Positions 49,843-59,756 of a stretch of 64,000 bases of DNA are shown here, piece by piece. Source of the stretch: an uncultured Dyadobacter sp. (GTDB taxonomy: Bacteria; Bacteroidota; Bacteroidia; Cytophagales; Spirosomataceae); contig NZ_CAMLSE010000009.1 of NCBI RefSeq assembly GCF_946482605.1, forward strand, positions 62,001-126,000, written 5' to 3'. Numbering within the stretch: the first letter of the stretch is position 1; every line of letters starts with the position of its first letter. The position numbers and the translations under genes were made by a program. The notes beneath the pieces were generated by a model that ran no database searches, was not told the origin of the DNA, and saw nothing but the letters and a program-made list of their open reading frames with translations.

Positions 49843-49859
49843 ATGCAACAATGTTGCAT
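49843..49859. promoter_or_regulatory. 7-1-7 palindrome box A1 (Zur-like)
   Basis: ATGCAACAATGTTGCAT is a perfect dyad around one central A, with a TGCAACA-1-TGTTGCA core. The 7-1-7 layout is typical of Fur-family regulators. It opens the DUF3526/TonB operon and is paired with box A2 38 bp on. Confidence 0.65.
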
Positions 49860-49880
49860 ATAAATGTTTTGTTTTGTTAC

Positions 49881-49897
49881 TTGCAACAATATTGCAA
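49881..49897. promoter_or_regulatory. 7-1-7 palindrome box A2 (Zur-like)
   Basis: TTGCAACAATATTGCAA is the second box, 38 bp downstream of A1 and 75 bp before the ATG at 49972. The outer hexamers TTGCAA/TTGCAA are exact. Confidence 0.6.
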
Positions 49898-49971
49898 AAC
49901 GTCTCCTACACACAGCAAACTTTGGCTGGTAGGACCGTCATTGGATTGCAACGTGGACAAAACCCGTTTAT

Positions 49972-51414
49972 ATGGCCCATTTCACTTTTATTAAGATCAT
50001 TGCCCGACAGGAATGGGCAACTACATTCAGAAGCAAGACGCCCCTGGCATTGTTTGCAGTGCTTTTTGCGGTTTCGCTGCTGGCTACCGTAACCGGCTGG
50101 CAATACGTGAGCAAATTCAACCAACAACAGGAATCGGCACACCAGCAAGTCCACGACCAATGGGTGAACCAACCCGACCGCCATCCGCACCGGGTCGCGC
50201 ATTACGGGTACCTGGTTTTCAGGGAAAAATCGCCGCTCAGCTTCTTTGATTTTGGCCTGGACAGTTATGTAGGGAATTCTGTGTTCCTGGAAGCCCACCG
50301 GCAGAACACGGTGAATATGAGTGAGGCAGGGTTCTCCAACGGCATGCTGCGGTTCGGGGAGCTCAGTATGGCGTTTGTGTTACAGCTGCTGGTGCCGCTT
50401 TTCATCATTTTTGTGGGCTTTCAAACCGTAGCCGGACTGAAAGCAAATGGCGTCCTCAAAATCCTCTTGTGCCAGCGGGCGTCATATCTGGACATTCTTT
50501 TGGGTAAAACCGCAGGACTGACGGCCGTCACCTGGGCCTTGTTTCTGCCGCTGCTGCTTGTGAGCCTGATTGGGGGAAATCTGCTCATTACGCGCAGTCT
50601 GGAAGCGGAAACTTTACTGCGTATAATGGTGATTGTTACGCTTTATGCCCTTTATTTCCTCGTCATCAACATGCTCGTGGTTACTGTTTCGGCCGTCAGC
50701 AAATCGTCCAAAAATGCATTGGTATCATTGGTACTGATATGGATCCTGTTTTTTATTGTGATACCCAAAAGCGGCCAGACGCTCGGCAGCGCATTGTTTA
50801 CCGCACCCGACAAAATCGCATTCGAAAGTGCCATTCATGAGGATGTAAGCAAGCAGGGTGACAGCCATAACCCCAATGATCCGCATTTTGCCGGTCTGAA
50901 GGCAATGACATTGAAGAAATACGGCGTGGATTCGATTTCGGCACTACCTGTGAATTATGGCGCGCTGGTCATGCAGGAAGGCGAAAATATCTCCTCAGGT
51001 ATTTTTAACAAACATTTTGACCGGCTGATCCGCATTTACAAATCACAAAACGCAGTTTCCGCCGTGCTCGGATTCGTCGATCCCTACCTCGCGATCCGGA
51101 ACATTTCCATGAGCCTCTCCGGCACCGATTTTGACTCGTTTACCGCCTTCCAGAAACAAACCGAAGCGTATCGGTTTGAAAAAACCAGGTTATTGAACGA
51201 GATCCATCTGACCCAAATCAAATTCCAGAACGACAGCAAACAACGAGTAAGTGCGGAAAACTGGCAGCAGCAGCCCGACTTCGCCTATCAGCCTGCTTCC
51301 ATGGCAAACAGCCTGGCGAGCAGTGGCGTAAGCCTGCTGGCGCTGCTTTGCTGGGCCGCCGTCGGCCTGGCCTCATTGACTTATGTTTCCTCCAAACGTG
51401 TATACCAGTTATGA
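49972..51414 (+). CDS. ABC-2 type permease with DUF3526 domain (first)
   Basis: A 480-residue membrane protein. One span near residues 24-44 is followed by a large periplasmic region and then a five- to six-span membrane part. Residues 57-77 carry five histidines (H57, H61, H71, H73, H77; HQQVHDQWVNQPDRHPHRVAHYG), the conserved DUF3526 HPHR..HYG segment. Later, GFSNGMLRFGELSMAFVLQLLVPLFIIFVGFQTVAG precedes the membrane domain. Its stop overlaps the next permease by 4 bp. With the ATPase it should form an exporter-type ABC complex. The Zur-like boxes in front suggest a metal-linked role. Confidence 0.88.
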   Translation: MAHFTFIKIIARQEWATTFRSKTPLALFAVLFAVSLLATVTGWQYVSKFNQQQESAHQQVHDQWVNQPDRHPHRVAHYGYLVFREKSPLSFFDFGLDSYVGNSVFLEAHRQNTVNMSEAGFSNGMLRFGELSMAFVLQLLVPLFIIFVGFQTVAGLKANGVLKILLCQRASYLDILLGKTAGLTAVTWALFLPLLLVSLIGGNLLITRSLEAETLLRIMVIVTLYALYFLVINMLVVTVSAVSKSSKNALVSLVLIWILFFIVIPKSGQTLGSALFTAPDKIAFESAIHEDVSKQGDSHNPNDPHFAGLKAMTLKKYGVDSISALPVNYGALVMQEGENISSGIFNKHFDRLIRIYKSQNAVSAVLGFVDPYLAIRNISMSLSGTDFDSFTAFQKQTEAYRFEKTRLLNEIHLTQIKFQNDSKQRVSAENWQQQPDFAYQPASMANSLASSGVSLLALLCWAAVGLASLTYVSSKRVYQL

Positions 51415-52802
51415 TTACCAATCGAAAGGTGTTGTTTCTTGAGACAAAAAATTTCGTACTAGGAAAAACCGTCCTGATCGGCACCATCAGTCTCCTGCTC
51501 TTCGGGTTTTACGGATTCTTCCACGGGAGCCAGGTGATCAGCCGGCAGCAAGAAAGTATCGCCGCGGTGCCGCAAGTCCAAAAGCATCATTTGGCGCAAA
51601 TAGTCGGGCACGGCACAGGCAAGCCCGTCGGTACAACAGCCTATTACCCTTTTTTCTATACCACCAATCCAGCCTCGCCCTGGGCGAAATTTTCGATCGG
51701 GCAGCGCGATGTAAACCCGCAAACGCTGAAAGTCAAGATGCTGGCCATTGAGGGCCAGTTGTACGACTCCGAGCTGACCAACCCGCTTACCCTGCTGGTT
51801 GGCAACCTGGACGCTTCGTTTGTCTTTATTTTCCTTTTTCCACTGCTTATCATCGCGTTTACCTACAATGCGATTTCGGAGGAGCAGGAAAATGGCGTCT
51901 GGAAAATCGTACGCACGACCTCCGCAAGCATAGCCGGTGCCATCGCGGGTAAGCTGCTCGTACGGCTTGCCATTATCATGCTGGCTGCCCTCGCCATTTT
52001 CATCTCTGCAGTATTGGCACTTCAACTCCCGTTTTCAACGCCTACTTTCCAGCTTTTAATTGTGGTGCTGCTCTATGTGCTGTTTTGGTTTATGCTTTCG
52101 GTGCTGGTGATCTCTTTGGGCAGAAGCTCTTCCTTTAATGCGACCACGCTGGTCTGCATCTGGATTTTCCTGGCAATTCTCTTTCCCGGGACTGCGAACA
52201 TCGTGATCAATGACCTGATAGCCGTGCCGGAGGCTGCTCAAACGGCCATTCAGCAAAGAGAGGGCTACCATGCCAAATGGGACCAGCCCAAAAAGCCGAC
52301 CATGGAAAAGTTTTATGCGGTATATCCACAATATCGCCGTTACCCTATTCCGGACGACAAATATTCGCCCGGCTGGTATTACGCCATGCAGTTTTCGGGC
52401 GACCTGGAATCGGCGCATTCATCGGAAACGCTCTTTAAAAAATTGTTTCAAAGACAGCGCTTGTCCGAACTGATCGCACGCTACAATCCGGTGATAGCGG
52501 CGCAGCAATCGATGAACAAAATCGCCAACTCGGATTTAACCAGTCATATCCGTTATCTGCAATCGGTAAAAGCCCATCACAAGCAGATCCGCGAGTACTT
52601 CTATCCTTTCATTTTTGAAGAAACACCTACCGAAAGCATCGACTGGGCCGGCTACCCTGCCTATGAGCCGAATGGTTATGTTACGGAAAAAGTCGCGGGA
52701 GGGCTTTACACGATCGTCATATGGATAGTCGCCGCGCTGGCGGTTGCGCTGGCATTGATCAATAAGAATTTTATACGGATAACAGACATACAAAATGCTT
52801 GA
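51411..52802 (+). CDS. ABC-2 type permease with DUF3526 domain (second)
   Basis: A 463-residue paralogue of the preceding permease. The ATG at 51411 overlaps the upstream stop (ATGA); an upstream in-frame start at 51348 lies inside the previous gene and is rejected. It has the same topology: a span near 20-40, a periplasmic part with HH and LYDSELTNPLTLLVG, then FIFLFPLLIIAFTYNAISEEQENGVWKIV before the membrane part. The two probably form a heterodimer. It overlaps the ATPase gene by 8 bp. Confidence 0.88.
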   Translation: MITNRKVLFLETKNFVLGKTVLIGTISLLLFGFYGFFHGSQVISRQQESIAAVPQVQKHHLAQIVGHGTGKPVGTTAYYPFFYTTNPASPWAKFSIGQRDVNPQTLKVKMLAIEGQLYDSELTNPLTLLVGNLDASFVFIFLFPLLIIAFTYNAISEEQENGVWKIVRTTSASIAGAIAGKLLVRLAIIMLAALAIFISAVLALQLPFSTPTFQLLIVVLLYVLFWFMLSVLVISLGRSSSFNATTLVCIWIFLAILFPGTANIVINDLIAVPEAAQTAIQQREGYHAKWDQPKKPTMEKFYAVYPQYRRYPIPDDKYSPGWYYAMQFSGDLESAHSSETLFKKLFQRQRLSELIARYNPVIAAQQSMNKIANSDLTSHIRYLQSVKAHHKQIREYFYPFIFEETPTESIDWAGYPAYEPNGYVTEKVAGGLYTIVIWIVAALAVALALINKNFIRITDIQNA

Positions 52803-53490
52803 AGCAATAAACCTTACCAAACAATACGGCGCACATACGGCGCTCAATGACCTGAACCTGACGATCGGTCCGGGTGAAATATTTGCATTACTCGGCCAGA
52901 ACGGTGCCGGAAAAACGACGACCATTAACCTGTTCCTGGGCTTTATCGAACCCAGCAGCGGCAAGGCACAGATCGACGGCATTTCAGTCGCCGAAAACCC
53001 GCAGGAAATCAAAAAATTGCTAGCCTATATTCCTGAAACAGTGATGCTTTACCCGAACCTGACCGGCATTGAAAACCTGAAATATTTCTCGTCGCTCGCA
53101 GGATTCGACTATTCCAAAAAAGAACTGGAACAATTGCTCGCAACGTCCGGACTGCAATCCAAAGCATTTGACCAGAAGCTGTCAGGTTATTCCAAAGGCA
53201 TGCGGCAAAAGGTGGGCATTGCCATTGCCGTCGCAAAAAGGGCCAAGGTGCTGTTGCTGGATGAACCTACAAGTGGCCTGGACCCGAAAGCTTCCAACGA
53301 ATTTTCTGAGATTATCAAAACCCTGGCCGCCAGCGGAACGACGATCCTGATGGCGACTCATGACATTTTCAGGGCAAAACAGGTGGCCAGCCGCATTGGC
53401 ATCATGAAGGAGGGAAACCTGCAATCAGTCATTCATGCCGGCTCGATCTCCGCCAATGAGCTGGAAAACTTATATCTGAAAACCGTTTAA
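52795..53490 (+). CDS. ABC transporter ATP-binding protein of the DUF3526 system
   Basis: A 231-residue ATPase with Walker A LLGQNGAGKTTT, signature SGYSKGMRQKVGIAIAVA, Walker B VLLLDEPTSGLD and switch histidine in MATHDIF. The size and motifs are those of CcmA/NosF-type ABC-2 partners. It overlaps the second permease by 8 bp and precedes the TonB receptor by 31 bp, so the four genes form one operon. Confidence 0.93.
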   Translation: MLEAINLTKQYGAHTALNDLNLTIGPGEIFALLGQNGAGKTTTINLFLGFIEPSSGKAQIDGISVAENPQEIKKLLAYIPETVMLYPNLTGIENLKYFSSLAGFDYSKKELEQLLATSGLQSKAFDQKLSGYSKGMRQKVGIAIAVAKRAKVLLLDEPTSGLDPKASNEFSEIIKTLAASGTTILMATHDIFRAKQVASRIGIMKEGNLQSVIHAGSISANELENLYLKTV

Positions 53491-53521
53491 AATTTCCGCA
53501 AGTCATCTTTTACCTTCTTGT

Positions 53522-55966
53522 ATGGTCAGGACTTTTATTCTCATTTTTATCATTGCAGCCATTTCCGCAAAGGGGCAAACGATCACCGGCTCGGTCTCCG
53601 ATGCCGCCACCGGAGCAAAAATTCAGGGAGCGACCGTTAAACTAGGCACCAATGGCACCGTGACCGACTCAGCTGGTTTTTTCACATTGCCCGGAAAAGG
53701 CGTCATACACATCACAGCGGTGGGCTATAAAACGGCCCGGCTGAATGGCGGGAACGCTTTTATGCACGTGGAACTGGTTCCTCAGGCAACGCAGCTTCAA
53801 ACCGTGGAAGTCACCGGCCGCGTTGCCAGGGATTACACGAGCGACTACTCCTTTTCGGCAACACGTATCTCGGCTTTCAATAAGGATGTGCCGCAGTCCA
53901 TTACATCCATTAGCAAGGAGCTGATGGCCGACCGGCAGGCGTTCCAGCTGGCCGATGCGGTCAAAATAGCCAGCGGGGTGATCCCTTCGAGCTACTACAA
54001 CCAATACACCATCCGCGGCATCAGTCAGAATGAGGAAGGGCAGATTATCAATGGCATGCGCACGCGGCAGTACTATTTCCTCCAACCACTGACAGCCAAT
54101 ATCGAACGCGTGGAAGTGATCAAAGGGCCCGCGAGTGCTACCTTTTCCTCGGTTGATCCAGGCGGGAGCATTAACCTCGTAACAAAAAAACCATTGGCCA
54201 CTGTACGCAAAGAAGCAAGCCTGAGCGCGGGCAGTTTCAGTACTTTCAGGGGCACGCTGGACTTCACAGGGCCGCTCAATGCATCTAAAACGCTGCTTTA
54301 CCGTGTGAATGGCGCCTACCAGCAGGCCCGCTCTTTCCGGGATATGGTCGGTAGTAAAGCATTGCTCCTGTCCCCGTCGCTGAGCTACATACCCAACGAG
54401 AAAACGGCTATCAATGCGGAACTGATTTACAGCAATATGGCCGGCACCCTCGATCGCGGCCAGCCTGTGTTCGGTGCCGTAGCGGGCGAAACCAAACTGA
54501 ACAGTACGCCGATCAGCCTCAACCTGGGCGCGCCCAACGACCATTTCAACTCGAAGGAAGTGATTATCACCGGCAGCCTGGCGCACAAGTTTTCTTCCCA
54601 TATCGGTTTCAATGCTTCTTACATGAAACAATCCTGGACGGAAGATTTGCAGGAGCACCGCACCACCAATGCCTTTGCCCCGGATATCACCAATCAGCCC
54701 GTCACCAGCCTCGCTGCCATGCAATTTGTACAGCGGCAGCAGTATTGGAACATCGACAATTTGAATGCCTATTTCAATTTCAACTTCCAAACCGGAAAGC
54801 TGGGCCACAAGCTGCTGGCCGGATATGATTTGAGCAGCTGGCACAAGCTCAAAGGCGGCGGGCAAAATGCGGCAAGGAGCTTTTTGTTGAAGGACGGCAC
54901 GGTAGCCAGCTCTTTCGTCCCGGCCAATGCGGCAAATTATCAAACGATTACAGTCAACGGCAGAACGCTCCCTAAACCGAATGTTAACCATTTTGACGTT
55001 CAAAATCCGCAATACACGATCCGGAATGCGGAAGACTACCAGCTGAACGTGCGGACAGCGCTTCCATCGGCTTTGACCACGACCAATGCGGTTTACATTC
55101 AGGAACAGGCGCAGCTGGGAAAACTGACGATGCTGCTCGGCCTGCGCCACGAATGGTTTGAAGATATTACCAACTACAAAGCACCCAACACGCTGACGGT
55201 CAAAAAGAATGCATTGCTTCCCAGGATCGGGGTAACCTTCGCTTTGAGCAAAGCTGTGAATGTGTATGGTACTTACCTGGAAGGTTTTCAGCCGCAATCC
55301 AACACGGTAACATTAATGCCCCAAACGGGCACGTTGCCCGCCGGCAGCCAGTTCGATCCGCTGCGGAGCAGTCTGAAAGAAGCCGGCCTGAAAACAGACC
55401 TGTTTCACAACCACATGCGCCTCAATGTAGCATTCTATGAGATCATCCAGAAAAACATCCTGATGAATGCCAATGATCCCGTCAATCCCGACCGCCTCGT
55501 AACGCGCGGAGAAGAGCGGAGCCGCGGGATCGAATGGGACCTGGCCGGGTACATTGTCCCCGAATGGCAGGTGAATGCTTCGTACAGCTACATTCACGCG
55601 GAGATTACCCGCGACCAGGACGAGCGCCTCGTAGGCGCACGCAAACAAAACACGCCCAAACACAGCGCAAATCTATGGACACGTTACAATTTCGGAGGCT
55701 CAACAGCGCTTAAAGACCTCGGAGTGGGTCTGGGTGTGCAGTACCAATCCAATAAAGTGCCCTGGTTTACCAGGGACTTTCTGGTACCAGCCTACACCAT
55801 CCTCGACGCGGCGGTGTATTACACGCCCGCCCGGAGCAACATTCAGCTCGCTTTGAATGCCGGTAACCTGCTCAACAAAACCTACTGGCTCGGCGCACAG
55901 AACTATCTCCGCCTGTTTCCCGGCGCGCCCCGGAATGTGACATTGACGCTGACTTTCAAATTCTGA
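53522..55966 (+). CDS. TonB-dependent siderophore/metallophore receptor 3
   Basis: An 814-residue receptor with signal peptide MVRTFILIFIIAAISAKGQ. A carboxypeptidase-regulatory domain (ITGSVSDAATGAKIQGATVKLG) is followed by a siderophore-receptor plug (VPQSITSISKELMADRQAFQLADAVKIASGVIPSSYYNQYTIRGISQNEEGQIINGMR, VEVIKGPASATFSSVDPGGSINLVTKKP). The barrel ends in NVTLTLTFKF. It is the last gene of the Zur-boxed operon. It ends 1 bp from the stop of the convergent barrel gene, so the two operons meet end to end. Confidence 0.92.
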   Translation: MVRTFILIFIIAAISAKGQTITGSVSDAATGAKIQGATVKLGTNGTVTDSAGFFTLPGKGVIHITAVGYKTARLNGGNAFMHVELVPQATQLQTVEVTGRVARDYTSDYSFSATRISAFNKDVPQSITSISKELMADRQAFQLADAVKIASGVIPSSYYNQYTIRGISQNEEGQIINGMRTRQYYFLQPLTANIERVEVIKGPASATFSSVDPGGSINLVTKKPLATVRKEASLSAGSFSTFRGTLDFTGPLNASKTLLYRVNGAYQQARSFRDMVGSKALLLSPSLSYIPNEKTAINAELIYSNMAGTLDRGQPVFGAVAGETKLNSTPISLNLGAPNDHFNSKEVIITGSLAHKFSSHIGFNASYMKQSWTEDLQEHRTTNAFAPDITNQPVTSLAAMQFVQRQQYWNIDNLNAYFNFNFQTGKLGHKLLAGYDLSSWHKLKGGGQNAARSFLLKDGTVASSFVPANAANYQTITVNGRTLPKPNVNHFDVQNPQYTIRNAEDYQLNVRTALPSALTTTNAVYIQEQAQLGKLTMLLGLRHEWFEDITNYKAPNTLTVKKNALLPRIGVTFALSKAVNVYGTYLEGFQPQSNTVTLMPQTGTLPAGSQFDPLRSSLKEAGLKTDLFHNHMRLNVAFYEIIQKNILMNANDPVNPDRLVTRGEERSRGIEWDLAGYIVPEWQVNASYSYIHAEITRDQDERLVGARKQNTPKHSANLWTRYNFGGSTALKDLGVGLGVQYQSNKVPWFTRDFLVPAYTILDAAVYYTPARSNIQLALNAGNLLNKTYWLGAQNYLRLFPGAPRNVTLTLTFKF

Positions 55967-55967
55967 C

Positions 55968-58400
55968 TTATAGCCGGTCCTGCTCTTCAATGCGGCGGGA
56001 CCGGCCCTGTTGTAACTGGCCGCCTAAATGATATTTCAGTGAAAGTGCCGCGCGCCGGGTGTCCGGAAGCTCATTGTAGCGGTAATTGGTGTAGTCGGTC
56101 AGCGAACGGCCCTGGTAGCGGTTGGTTCTCAAAAAATCATTAACCGAGATGCGTACGTCTAGTTTTCCCTTTGCAAAGGTTTTTTTCATTCCAAAATCCG
56201 CAACGAAGATGCGTCTCTTTTGATAAATCCCCAGGAGCTCACGCGAGGTCCAGGCGCCGGCAAGTTCTATATGAATGCCGGCAGATAACTTAAACTGCTG
56301 GGTAAGCATGGTATGGGCAGCCCACATGCCCGCAACCCGCTCCCCTTCCAAAAGCGGAATGGGGTAGCTGGTGTGGCTTGCAGCCGCCGTGAGCTGCAAA
56401 TCCCAGAATGAAAATGGATGAAAACCAGCATTGCCCGTCACATCCAACCGTCGCATACGTCCCAGATTGGCATGCTGACTGATGACCGCGCCGGTGCCTT
56501 CCTCGATCCCGAGCCTGCGCGAAAGAAAATTGCTCCTCGTCGAATAACTGGCCGAAAGCACATAGTTGTCTTTGAGTGTATAACCGGCCGAATAGCTCCA
56601 CGCCATTTCCGGTTGCAGGTAAGGATTTCCGGAAAAGTAAAAGTACTGGTCATAGTACCAGCGGACGGGATTGAGCGTCGAATATGCCGGCCGGTTGATC
56701 CGCCGGCTTATTGAAAGATTAAACTTGTTATTCGCATTCAGTAGATGCTCCGCAGAAAACGAGGGAAAAAGACGGATATACTGCCACCGGTTATCGATTC
56801 CTGTTTCTAATGTATAACCCCGGGCGCGGGTCCATTCCAGCCGCAAGCCAGCCTCCCACCGCGTTTTGCCCGATTTTCCCGACAAAGATGTGTACGCTGC
56901 CGCGATCTGCTCACGATACCGGAAACGGTTCGACATTGACTTTGCTTCTACAAATCCGCCATTCAGCAGGGAGTCAAAACGGTAATTCGCCTGGTTTCGG
57001 ATGTCGGCATATTTCACTCCGGCTTTGACATTAACCCGCTCGAAAGGAAGGTCCAGGTCTGCTTTGATGGATCGGATCGCGACGGTTCCCGGCTGGTGCA
57101 CACGTAATTGTTCATCGGGACCATCAGGGTGCCCGGCTGCATTGGTATAGCCGGTTGTCAATAATCCATCTGAAAAATTGCGGTAGGAAATGTAATGTGC
57201 ATCGGCGGTAAGTTTCTTTCCCGCGCTGTCGATATTGAACTGGTAGCCCGCGTTGGCTGCGTCGTAATGATAAGGTTCTTCGAGGTAGTTGGTACTGTTC
57301 ACAACGCCGGTCAGCTCCTGCCTTGCATTGTATTTGCTGACGCGTGACAGCGCATTGTCCTTCACATAATCATCAATATAACCATTATAACCGGCCGTAA
57401 GCTGGTGAGCGGCTGCTATCTGCCATTCGACGTTTGCTCTGAAGGTATAAAAATAGATTTTGGTAGGCGTTTCGAGCTGGCGGTCGATGTAGATCCGCTG
57501 ACCATTTTCTGTGACCGAATTCCCGGACCGGCTTTTCACAAACCGGTGTGGGGTATTGTAGTCAAAAGATGCAAATGCATTTAGTTTGCTGTTCCGGTAA
57601 CTGCCGGCCACATTCTGGTTATTCATCCAGAACCTGCCTTTGGATATTGAAGTTAAAAAATCCAGCGAATACCCTGACGACAGGTTTTTCCTGGTGACAA
57701 AATTGATGATACCCGCATTGCCCGCCGCATCAAATTCTGCGCCCGGTGTCGGCATCAGCTCAACTTTGCTGATACTTTCCCCACTGATGCTTTTCAGCAG
57801 TTGGGCAAGCTGCTGCTCCGACAAATAGGTCATTTTTCCATCGATCATCACATTGACCCCACCGGCGCCTTTGAGCAGGATCTGATCATCCTGCCCCAGG
57901 CTAACGCCCGGCACCTTGCGGAGCAGGTCAAGAGCCGACGCCCCGGAGCTGAGCGCGCTGTTACCCACATTCAATACCAGCTTGCCATGATCCATTTCAA
58001 TCGCCTGTCTGCGGGCCGTCACCGTCGCCGCATTCAGTTCTACCGCCGCTTCTGTCAAAACCAGATTACGTTGAATAGTCATTGACACTTCCGCAGCTAC
58101 CACGACGGTATCGGCATGGCCGGCGACATAACCGACCATCGAAGCGCTCAGGACATAACGCCCCTGCCCTACGCTTTCAAACGCAAAGCCACCATCTTCG
58201 GTACTGACCATCGTCTGCCTCTCCTGTTGCGCGTCAAGACTGATCAATCGCACATGCGCCCCCGGAATGGACTGCCGGTTGGAATCGGTTACCTGACCGT
58301 AAATTCTGGCCTTTTGAGTTTGCGCAAAACTTTGGACAGAAAACAAAAGTGCTACCAGGGTAACACACTTCGAACATTTCAGGAAGTAAGGTTGGTGCAT
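55968..58400 (-). CDS. TonB-receptor-like outer membrane barrel in the COG0523 operon
   Basis: An 810-residue OMP_b-brl_3-type barrel protein. It has a signal peptide (CVTLVALLFSVQSFAQ), a carboxypeptidase-regulatory domain (IYGQVTDSNRQSIPGAHVRLI), and a plug-like part (ATVTARRQAIEMDHGKLVLNVGNSALSSGASALDLLRKVPGVSLGQ, NVMIDGKMTYLSEQQLAQLLKSI). A barrel follows, and the C-terminus is extended and basic (GGQLQQGRSRRIEEQDRL) rather than ending in an aromatic residue. It follows the COG0523 GTPase by 78 bp and probably imports or retains the same metal. Confidence 0.85.
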   Translation of the reverse strand: MHQPYFLKCSKCVTLVALLFSVQSFAQTQKARIYGQVTDSNRQSIPGAHVRLISLDAQQERQTMVSTEDGGFAFESVGQGRYVLSASMVGYVAGHADTVVVAAEVSMTIQRNLVLTEAAVELNAATVTARRQAIEMDHGKLVLNVGNSALSSGASALDLLRKVPGVSLGQDDQILLKGAGGVNVMIDGKMTYLSEQQLAQLLKSISGESISKVELMPTPGAEFDAAGNAGIINFVTRKNLSSGYSLDFLTSISKGRFWMNNQNVAGSYRNSKLNAFASFDYNTPHRFVKSRSGNSVTENGQRIYIDRQLETPTKIYFYTFRANVEWQIAAAHQLTAGYNGYIDDYVKDNALSRVSKYNARQELTGVVNSTNYLEEPYHYDAANAGYQFNIDSAGKKLTADAHYISYRNFSDGLLTTGYTNAAGHPDGPDEQLRVHQPGTVAIRSIKADLDLPFERVNVKAGVKYADIRNQANYRFDSLLNGGFVEAKSMSNRFRYREQIAAAYTSLSGKSGKTRWEAGLRLEWTRARGYTLETGIDNRWQYIRLFPSFSAEHLLNANNKFNLSISRRINRPAYSTLNPVRWYYDQYFYFSGNPYLQPEMAWSYSAGYTLKDNYVLSASYSTRSNFLSRRLGIEEGTGAVISQHANLGRMRRLDVTGNAGFHPFSFWDLQLTAAASHTSYPIPLLEGERVAGMWAAHTMLTQQFKLSAGIHIELAGAWTSRELLGIYQKRRIFVADFGMKKTFAKGKLDVRISVNDFLRTNRYQGRSLTDYTNYRYNELPDTRRAALSLKYHLGGQLQQGRSRRIEEQDRL

Positions 58401-58478
58401 AGTACCGGGTTCAGGTGTTTGGAAGAATCGACATTCAGATACCGGCCACGCCGGGCAGTATCTTTTGCTATCAGGCCG

Positions 58479-59687
58479 TTATAAAACTGGAAACGGATCG
58501 TCGAATCGTCCGCCGCTTTCCATCAGCCGGACCTCTGCTTCGGTGCATAGGCACTGCCGTAAATCTTCCATTACCTGATCCTGGTCCAGGTCCTGCCCGA
58601 TCACAACCAGTTCGTTGGTGCGATCCCCGAACCTGCCCCAGCGCGAATCGATAGCATCACGATTATCAATATACGCCTGATAGCGCAAACGCTGCGCTGC
58701 CGGCATGCTTGCCCACCACACCCCCGCGGACTCGGCTCTCACCGATCCCCCGGCCTGGCTCCAGTTGAGCGCATCGGCCGGTCGCGATGCAATCCAGAAC
58801 AAGCCCTTGCTACGGATAATGCCTGCTGGCCAATTTCCCTGAATGTAGTCCCAAAAGCGCTTCGGATGAAACGGGCGCGCGTCTCGAAAGACAAAAGAGC
58901 TGATCCCGTATTCCTCCGTCTCTGGCACATGGCCGCCATGCTCGGCCTTGTTCAACTCCTGAATCCACCCGGCCGACTGTTCGGCCTTTTCGTAGTTGAA
59001 TAAACCGGTATTGACCACATCATTCAGATCCACATTGGAAAACGAACTTTCAATCACCTTTGCACCGGGGTTGAGTGCGACCAGGATAGCACGGAGCTCT
59101 TTGATCTCACGCCCGGACACCAGATCGGCCTTATTGAGAACAATCACATCAGCGAATTCAATCTGATCGGTCAGTAAATTGACAATCGTTCGCCTGTCGG
59201 ACCGGTCGTCATTGAGCTTCCTGCTAAAAACCGTGTCGAGCGAGCCGAAATCCCTGGCGAAATTAAATGCGTCCACCACCGTCACCATGCAGTCAATCAT
59301 GGCCCATTTCGATAGGTCGATACCGCTCTGCGCATCGACAAACGAAAAAGTCTGCGCCACGGGAACAGGCTCGGAAATGCCCGTGCTTTCGATCAGCAGA
59401 TAGTCGAAGCGGTTTTCTTTGGCCAGGTTTTCCACTTCAATCATCAAATCTTCACGCAGGGTACAACAAATGCACCCGTTGGACATTTCTACCAGCCGCT
59501 CCTGGGTGCGGCTTAATGTATTCTGCTCGCCAACAAGCCGGGCATCGACATTGATTTCGCTCATGTCATTCACGATCACGGCCACCTTCAAACCCTGCTT
59601 GTTATGCAGAATATGATTGAGTAAACTCGTTTTACCCGCACCCAAAAATCCGCTGAGCACCGTTACCGGCATTTTTTTCTGATCCAT
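58479..59687 (-). CDS. CobW/COG0523-family GTPase, putative zinc metallochaperone
   Basis: A 402-residue GTPase. Walker A GFLGAGKTS covers residues 13-21, metal motif CICC (CXCC) 72-75, base-recognition NKAD 186-189, and the CobW C-terminal domain starts near 255 (GISSFVFRDARPFHPKRFWDYI). COG0523 proteins deliver zinc to apo-enzymes during starvation. The start at 59687 fits the family; a TTG at 59711 would lie inside the palindromic box. Two 7-1-7 boxes and an exact TATATTTG promoter precede it. Confidence 0.9.
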   Translation of the reverse strand: MDQKKMPVTVLSGFLGAGKTSLLNHILHNKQGLKVAVIVNDMSEINVDARLVGEQNTLSRTQERLVEMSNGCICCTLREDLMIEVENLAKENRFDYLLIESTGISEPVPVAQTFSFVDAQSGIDLSKWAMIDCMVTVVDAFNFARDFGSLDTVFSRKLNDDRSDRRTIVNLLTDQIEFADVIVLNKADLVSGREIKELRAILVALNPGAKVIESSFSNVDLNDVVNTGLFNYEKAEQSAGWIQELNKAEHGGHVPETEEYGISSFVFRDARPFHPKRFWDYIQGNWPAGIIRSKGLFWIASRPADALNWSQAGGSVRAESAGVWWASMPAAQRLRYQAYIDNRDAIDSRWGRFGDRTNELVVIGQDLDQDQVMEDLRQCLCTEAEVRLMESGGRFDDPFPVL

Positions 59688-59702
59688 ACTAAAAGAATAA
59701 TT

Positions 59703-59719
59703 ATGCAACAATGTTGCAA
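59703..59719. promoter_or_regulatory. 7-1-7 palindrome box B1 (Zur-like)
   Basis: ATGCAACAATGTTGCAA differs from box A1 at 49843-49859 only in the last base. It overlaps the -7 element of the COG0523 promoter. Confidence 0.68.
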
Positions 59720-59745
59720 ATATAAATCAAAATCAGAAAATGCAA
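59717..59745 (-). promoter_or_regulatory. Promoter of the COG0523 operon
   Basis: On the minus strand TATATTTG (59724-59717) fits TAnnTTTG exactly, and TTG (59745-59743) sits 18 bp upstream. Box B1 overlaps the -7 element and box B2 overlaps the -33 element, the layout expected for repression. Confidence 0.62.
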
Positions 59746-59756
59746 CATTGATGCAC
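59740..59756. promoter_or_regulatory. 7-1-7 palindrome box B2 (Zur-like, degenerate)
   Basis: ATGCAACATTGATGCAC matches box A1 at 14 of 17 positions and lies 37 bp from B1, nearly the same offset as A1-A2 (38 bp). Confidence 0.5.

Follow-up and report, generated by a model that had tools for sequence, protein, structure and literature searches.

Paired palindromic boxes before two Dyadobacter operons are probable operators of a Bacteroidota Zur

We analysed a 64 kb stretch of DNA from an uncultured Dyadobacter sp. (contig NZ_CAMLSE010000009.1), the whole of which is called the window below. A palindromic box of the pattern TGCAACANTGTTGCA, with the 7-1-7 core TGCAACA-1-TGTTGCA, forms two pairs there, A and B, which precede two convergent operons. 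These four boxes are very likely the operators of a Bacteroidota Zur, a Fur-family zinc repressor, with two boxes at each promoter. A Fur-family (Zur) regulon with paired operators had been proposed in the preliminary description of this DNA, and the proposal is supported by the excess of the motif, by zinc-linked and Fur-family neighbours, by the metal ligands of the regulator, and by the recurrent spacing of the boxes. Genome-wide statements rest on relatives of the window organism.

Results

Four boxes at two promoters

The boxes lie at the following positions.

Box A1, 49843-49859: ATGCAACAATGTTGCAT, exact core TGCAACA-A-TGTTGCA
Box A2, 49881-49897: TTGCAACAATATTGCAA, one core mismatch, 38 bp from A1
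Box B1, 59703-59719: ATGCAACAATGTTGCAA, exact core TGCAACA-A-TGTTGCA
Box B2, 59740-59756: core TGCAACATTGATGCA, one core mismatch, 37 bp from B1

Their coordinates and start-to-start distances (38 bp for pair A, 37 bp for pair B) proved correct when the sequence was re-read, and A1 and B1 do differ at one of 17 bases, as claimed. The core that all four were said to share is exact in A1 and B1, but A2 and B2 each depart from it by one base. At up to one mismatch these are the only sites in the window, two per promoter, against 0.019 expected under a first-order Markov model, which predicts 0.0005 exact sites where two were found. With up to three mismatches, nine sites were found against a mean of 4.06 after shuffling, and 2 of 100 shuffles reached nine.

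The primary sigma factor has TAnnTTTG as its -7 element, located at -12 to -5 (PMC9723704, PMC6847099). At pair B, compared with a sigma-ABfr type promoter, the following elements were recognised.

59717-59724, minus strand: -7 element TATATTTG, exact match to the consensus TAnnTTTG; predicted start site at about 59712
59743-59745, minus strand: TTG within B2 at the -33 position, 18 bp upstream of the -7 element

An exact Bacteroidota promoter had been announced here; the -7 element is indeed exact, but the -33 element is GTTG, three of the four letters of TTTG. On the minus strand, B1 includes the last two bases of the -7 element together with the predicted start site. Because the -7 element sits at -12 to -5, the downstream core spans about -6 to +9, and the predicted leader of the B transcript is about 25 nt long.

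Promoter geometry of the pairs

The arrangement of pair B recurs in other loci. Among pairs with a spacing of 36-40 bp, TAnnTT abuts the core on the inner flank in 37 of 49 cases and on the outer flank in 2 of 49 (Fisher 7e-14), and these counts, like those of the spacing, include close relatives (loci L188, L190, L192 and L193; L197 and L198). Joined to the box, the inner TAnnTT reads TAnnTTTG, the last two bases of the -7 element being the first two of the box. Since TAnnTT is found on the inner and rarely on the outer flank, the pair is tied to the promoter. The contrast is weaker when one mismatch is allowed (inner 47, outer 20 of 49). The exact flank also accompanies 9 of 44 strong single boxes, compared with 10 of 1569 background TG positions. 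In 36 of 37 oriented pairs the inner half of the upstream box contains a TTG. It lies 17-21 bp upstream of the -7 element, the place of a -33 element, and pair B conforms to this layout with its -7 element at 59717-59724 and its TTG at 59743-59745. The -33 half of this argument is weaker than the -7 half, also in view of F. johnsoniae (PMC7366714). Judged from these sequences, promoter geometry appears to be the reason for the 36-40 bp spacing.

In the window and loci L001-L080 and L132-L198, 42 of 56 distinct pairs are spaced by 36-40 bp, with a mode of 38, the loci L183-L198 having been found by requiring pairs 25-55 bp apart; the reversed pattern gave no strong site in the same set. The 37-38 bp pairing described for the window does recur in other genomes across the phylum, with a peak at 38 bp.

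Other pairs fall into separate classes, one at 28-29 bp and one at 22-23 bp (L144, L176, L177 and L178), the latter intergenic and beside MerC and a lipoprotein of 190 amino acids (aa). The near-identical loci L188, L190, L192 and L193, from four genomes, carry 38-bp double boxes with an aminopeptidase-N-like gene downstream and an open reading frame (ORF) of 116-117 aa with a CxxC motif on the opposite side.

Co-occurrence of boxes and regulator across the phylum

A profile built from four box-associated regulators was run against a phylum sample of 395 genomes, of which 129 were matched, 105 of them at E<=1e-12. The motif TGCAACNNNGTTGCA is present in 49 of these 105 genomes with a strong Zur-like match versus 53 of the 290 others (Fisher 5e-8, uncorrected for kinship and genome size). 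At least three TGCAACNNNGTTGCA sites occur in 13 of the 105 versus 2 of the 290, and a strict double box in 14 of the 105 versus 2 of the 290.

A gene-blind search for two boxes 25-55 bp apart retrieved 16 of the 395 genomes, and none with the reversed pattern. The spacing is 36-39 bp in 12 of the 16, or in 8 of 12 once near-identical pairs are merged by eye. The regulator is encoded by 14 of these 16 genomes; the two without a strong match, G114 (spacing 55, repeat-like) and G118 (spacing 33), look like strays. Zinc-linked neighbours stand at 7 of the 16 double-box loci (L183-L198): COG0523 genes, identified by eye, at L191, L196, L197 and L198, a MerC-like gene at L184 (by eye; no NCBIfam match), an AztD-like gene at L185, and the Zur-like gene itself at L183.

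Closer to the window, a search of two Dyadobacter genomes (G001 and G002) that allowed two mismatches yielded 33 and 34 sites, and the reversed pattern yielded 5 and 9. In the relative's family, 59 of 61 genomes have a site at up to one mismatch, with 247 sites in total against 17 reversed. By the genome scan that the preliminary description had called for, the motif is not random in relatives. The reversed pattern is a lenient control that understates chance, because it contains CG steps absent from the motif; the 59 sites found in the 290 genomes lacking a strong Zur-like match are a better baseline.

A Zur-like regulator beside the boxes

Three of the seven Fur-family matches of G001 and G002 are preceded by a box at a distance of no more than about 175 bp (G001 C3:626191 and C12:46561; G002 C45:251761), and the two canonical, best-scoring Fur genes of these genomes have no box beside them. 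The box-associated regulator exceeds the gathering score of the Fur-family profile PF01475. When Zur-like loci of about 3.4 kb were fetched, 13 of 30 contained a box at up to two mismatches, and none of the 30 did so for the reversed control. In genome G078 (locus L183) a double box stands directly before the Zur-like gene, with a flavoprotein gene on its other side.

In E. coli Zur, zinc is bound at site A by Cys103, 106, 143 and 146 and at site B by His77, Cys88, His96 and Glu111, and Cys88 is described as the best conserved of the site-B residues across Zur proteins (PMC4219657). In an alignment of 36 rows, in which one gene appears twice (L159 and L199), both CXXC pairs, that is the four site-A cysteines, are invariant (36 of 36). 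The equivalent of His77 is kept in 35 rows and that of Cys88 in 34; the exceptions are the paralogue of L001 at both positions and the regulator of L183 at Cys88, which has a cysteine in the neighbouring column. The column taken for His96 holds H in 17 rows and D in 19, and neighbouring histidines are found in 35 of 36 and 36 of 36, so this position is ambiguous. The canonical Fur proteins of both Dyadobacter genomes have no equivalent of His77 or Cys88 in the alignment.

Naming the regulator by curated models failed, as no Fur, PerR or Zur model reached its cut-off. The curated full-length Zur model NF008646 has a cut-off of 167 bits and gave 32.9 and 40.2; for the regulator of L183 it leads, with 40 versus 29, still under the cut-off. 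The solved chains matched by one regulator were, in order, FurB (2o03), the zinc uptake regulation protein (4mtd) and the ferric uptake regulator (5nbc). We take 4mtd to be the E. coli Zur structure. On gene context and ligands, rather than on a curated model, Zur is the best name for the box-associated regulator.

Three further Fur-like genes were encountered. A second, diverged Fur-family paralogue of L001 (L001:7273-7776, plus strand) adjoins an exact box, has no counterpart of His77 or Cys88, and may respond to a different signal. In L220 (G227:C2:1644026-1644433) the Zur-like domain lies in an open frame of 793 residues, possibly a fusion or merely a long frame. In G002, a truncated Fur-like ORF of 90 aa (L101:1459-1731, plus strand) comes immediately after an apparent outer-membrane beta-barrel ORF.

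Genes and operons of the window

Pairs A and B precede the following genes.

49972-51414, plus strand: ABC-2 permease with DUF3526, first gene of operon A
51348-52802, plus strand: second ABC-2/DUF3526 permease; ORF overlaps the first, true start probably later
52795-53490, plus strand: ABC ATPase, operon A
53522-55966, plus strand: TonB-dependent receptor, operon A; siderophore-receptor subfamily NCBIfam TIGR01783
55968-58400, minus strand: outer-membrane beta-barrel protein (OMP_b-brl_3), second gene of operon B
58479-59687, minus strand: COG0523/CobW-family GTPase, ZigA-like; ORF opens at 59711 (TTG), likely start ATG at 59687

Gene spacing suggests that the tight plus-strand run 49972-55966 and the minus-strand pair form one operon each. 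The promoter of pair B does serve a COG0523 protein, as had been stated: the GTPase gives 538.5 bits over the full length of the ZigA model NF038288, below the curated equivalog cut-off of 600, and its profile match is that of a ZigA-like protein short of ZigA proper. The TonB receptor (53522-55966) scores 300 bits against TIGR01783, exceeding the cut-off of 223.5.

The closest COG0523 relatives of the window GTPase are from Dyadobacter, with 79 and 76% identity. In locus L001 (Dyadobacter sp. CECT 9623) all six genes are present in the same convergent layout, with 67-85% protein identity, and box pairs at 38 bp precede both operons (9946/9984 and 19757/19795), with one or two mismatches per box. 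The six-gene block is not kept in the L002 stretch. Synteny was tested in 12 of 80 COG0523 loci; besides L001, both DUF3526 permeases and the ABC ATPase are found close to COG0523 in L005 and L048, so the two operons may have become linked before Dyadobacter arose. Three loci labelled Nostoc, Planktophila and Thalassobius (L003, L007 and L023) carry COG0523 proteins 66-72% identical to that of the window and resemble Bacteroidota contamination.

Genes beside boxes in relatives

We sampled 51 regions, comprising the listed places at up to one mismatch for 18 of 61 genomes (G020 in part) outside L001 and L002, and three weaker places of G001, two picked as paired and one for its position next to a Fur-family gene; the sample excludes the remaining two-mismatch places of G001 and G002. 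Together with L001 and L002, these regions gave 100 flanking ORFs, called with a crude ORF caller, in 41 clusters. The commonest clusters contain a lipoprotein of about 190 aa (10 ORFs), TonB receptors (9) and MerC (8), followed by a thioredoxin-reductase-like flavoprotein (7), AztD-like proteins (7), COG0523 (5) and the Fur-family regulator (5); smaller recurrent clusters are ABC ATPases (4), His-rich lipoproteins (4) and DUF3526 permeases (3). Names derive from a Pfam scan of 20 ORFs from 19 of the 41 clusters, the COG0523 cluster being named through L001 and L002, the AztD-like and flavoprotein labels coming from NCBIfam, and the lipoprotein labels from a reading of the sequences by eye. 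The AztD-like proteins reach 81.9 and 93.1 bits with NF038015, missing its cut-off of 400, and their likeness to AztD is only a remote similarity. The sequences thus point to a regulon that shares one operator and includes zinc genes, though mixed with genes that have no evident zinc tie, and some sites beside such genes are probably due to chance.

A box at up to three mismatches lies within 250 bp upstream of the COG0523 gene in 31 of 80 loci, against 1 for the reversed control; among the remaining loci, some have boxes further upstream and others none.

Several of these neighbours have features of their own. The lipoprotein of about 190 aa (by eye; Pfam and NCBIfam gave no match for the member scanned) is found at L174:1247-1867 (minus), L134:1241-1855 (minus), L139:1970-2521 (plus) and in seven more copies, and several copies of its gene are divergent from a MerC gene. 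The thioredoxin-reductase-like flavoprotein stands repeatedly at boxes (L147:1839-2807, plus; L183:1603-2553, plus; and relatives), twice with an ORF close by that looks TetR-like by eye (L181 and L182). Small His-rich lipoproteins beside boxes (L152:1387-1800, minus; L163:1883-2290, plus) are possible metal-binding proteins.

Discussion

A model for the paired operators

The sequences themselves show the boxes, their pairing and spacing, the overlap with the -7 element, the gene context and the ligands of the regulator; from these we infer Zur binding, a response to zinc, repression and a rationale for the spacing along the following lines. One Zur dimer would occupy each palindrome of 15-17 bp. 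At a canonical pair, the first two bases of the downstream box are also the final two of the -7 element (TAnnTTTG|CAACA), and this box continues across the predicted start site; the TTG of the -33 element would come from the upstream box, in its inner half (TGTTGCA). With ample zinc, zinc-loaded Zur would sit on both elements and shut the promoter; under zinc shortage its release would allow expression of a programme of zinc acquisition and allocation, comprising here the COG0523 GTPase with the outer-membrane protein, and the ABC-2/DUF3526 transporter with the TonB receptor. The 36-40 bp spacing would then be dictated by the -33/-7 distance of the primary sigma factor, not by dimer contact.

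A rival account, itself compatible with Zur, holds that the spacing arises from Zur dimers, or dimers of dimers, that touch or jointly bend the DNA, the overlap with the promoter being secondary. It would fit the sharp spacing peak at 38-39 bp and the minor classes at 28-29 and 22-23 bp, and E. coli Zur dimers do cooperate, through an Asp49-Arg52 salt bridge (PMC4219657). Dimer contact leaves aside the asymmetry of the TAnnTT flank (inner 37 versus outer 2 of 49) and the strong single boxes, 9 of 44 of which still have the exact flank (background TG positions, 10 of 1569). Cooperation in E. coli Zur involves closely adjacent dimers and not sites 38 bp apart, which also counts against it. Moreover, 37-38 bp correspond to about 3.5-3.6 helical turns, so the dimers would lie on roughly opposite faces of the helix, speaking against direct contact. 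We consider this account possible, although unlikely.

Other explanations concern what binds the boxes, if anything. That they are chance palindromes is practically negligible: a low baseline does exist (the 59 sites in 290 genomes without a strong Zur-like match), but the window has four sites against 0.02 expected, both pairs are conserved in Dyadobacter sp. CECT 9623, and chance was rejected on the excess over both Markov and shuffle expectations. The protein on the boxes might instead be Fur, the iron regulator, or a sensor of both iron and zinc, and the locus one for siderophore-type iron uptake. The receptor of operon A exceeds the siderophore-receptor cut-off of TIGR01783, and one scanned box-linked TonB receptor of relatives matches haem/haemoglobin receptor models best, under cut-off, with ZnuD third. 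The canonical Fur genes of G001 and G002, however, have no box where another Fur-family gene has one, the box-associated regulator has the Zur-type His77 and Cys88, and the recurrent partners are COG0523, AztD-like and MerC proteins. We hold an iron regulator to be improbable because the canonical Fur has neither a box nor the Zur ligands, and the siderophore-type receptor keeps this rival alive. Very improbable, finally, is a regulator outside the Fur family, for example of the MerR, MarR or TetR type. The motif is a plain palindrome, and ORFs that read by eye as TetR-like lie near two oxidoreductase sites (L181 and L182); yet the boxes recur at the Fur-family gene itself, 14 of 16 double-box genomes have that gene, and a 7-1-7 repeat is named as a Fur-dimer site in B. 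subtilis (PMC5007448).

Several observations weigh against Zur operators fused to the promoter. Pair A has no -7 element at the embedded position, its best candidate having two mismatches; its promoter may be shifted or weak. At the matching place in the downstream box the TTG is almost equally conserved, so that conservation of the TTG is by itself no proof of a -33 role. For one regulator, the Fur, PerR and Zur models of NCBIfam give about 33 bits each, all under cut-off, and for the L001 paralogue the Zur model is absent from the NCBIfam matches. No zur gene was found in the window, where tblastn with five regulators gave zero matches. The siderophore-receptor match of operon A suggests iron no less than zinc. 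In the phylum sample, 56 of 105 genomes with a Zur-like protein have no TGCAACNNNGTTGCA, and therefore part of the phylum has a drifted operator or none; 53 of 290 without the protein have one, and the Fisher tests leave kinship and genome size aside. No plainly zinc-linked neighbour is seen at 9 of 16 double-box loci, a box universal at COG0523 genes is ruled out by the 31 of 80 loci with one within 250 bp, and the scanned box neighbours include a 2-hydroxyacid dehydrogenase, an FtsX-like permease, a fatty-acid desaturase, a response regulator, DoxX and a sigma factor, which have no obvious zinc tie.

Relation to known systems

The B. subtilis yciC and S. coelicolor znuA promoters have at least two Zur boxes, one over -35 and one over -10, an arrangement whose significance was called unclear (PMC6103462), and YciC is a COG0523 protein (PMC5007448). 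The promoters described here resemble these in having two boxes, probably one per promoter element, and share the COG0523 target with yciC; they differ in the sigma-factor consensus and in that the 36-40 bp pair recurs across a phylum. The regulator resembles E. coli Zur as a Fur-family protein, probably a zinc repressor, with the site-A cysteines and the His77 and Cys88 ligands. E. coli Zur binds as cooperating dimers that read bases partly by Tyr45 (PMC4219657), but in the 36 rows the Tyr45 position varies (G, A, S, P and others). In the Zur-linked COG0523 subgroup of Haas et al. 2009 (PMC2770081), as here, COG0523 genes lie downstream of putative Zur sites; a term search of the main text of that paper, its supplements being outside the search, found no word beginning with Bacteroid, Flavobacter or Sphingobacter and one mention of Cytophaga, in the UreG table. 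The Caulobacter Zur regulon (PMC4176598) likewise ties Zur control to TonB-dependent outer-membrane proteins, in a different phylum. Excerpts of a paper on zinc in Riemerella name Zur in general terms only (PMC11960050). No Bacteroidota Zur operator or regulon appeared among the open-access literature matches listed (title, start of abstract and passages), subscription papers and regulon databases being outside that search, and a literature search with the motif letters gave no Zur paper by title among the matches listed.

Significance

What appears to be new here is a probable Zur regulon with its own operator and a pairing embedded in the promoter. Whether this amounts to a zinc operator grammar of the whole phylum, with one Zur box fused to each element of the primary promoter, a spacing set by the sigma factor, and the double box as a detector of zinc-starvation genes, seems to us evenly balanced. 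Such a grammar would take the form TGCAACAnTG[TTG]CA - 15 to 19 bp - [TAnnTTTG]CAACAnTGTTGCA, to which we attach the same even confidence. If it holds, the zinc genes would include families without an assigned role, among them the lipoprotein of about 190 aa, the small His-rich lipoproteins and the thioredoxin-reductase-like flavoprotein, and the operon of the ABC-2/DUF3526 transporter and siderophore-type TonB receptor would also be zinc genes, possibly a metallophore-linked zinc system. Testable zinc roles would follow for unannotated lipoproteins, a flavoprotein and a DUF3526 transporter. The pairs would also make a clear test case of what governs operator spacing, the sigma factor or the repressor, and a readable operator of fixed geometry would permit zinc-starvation genes to be called from sequence in a phylum with unusual promoters.

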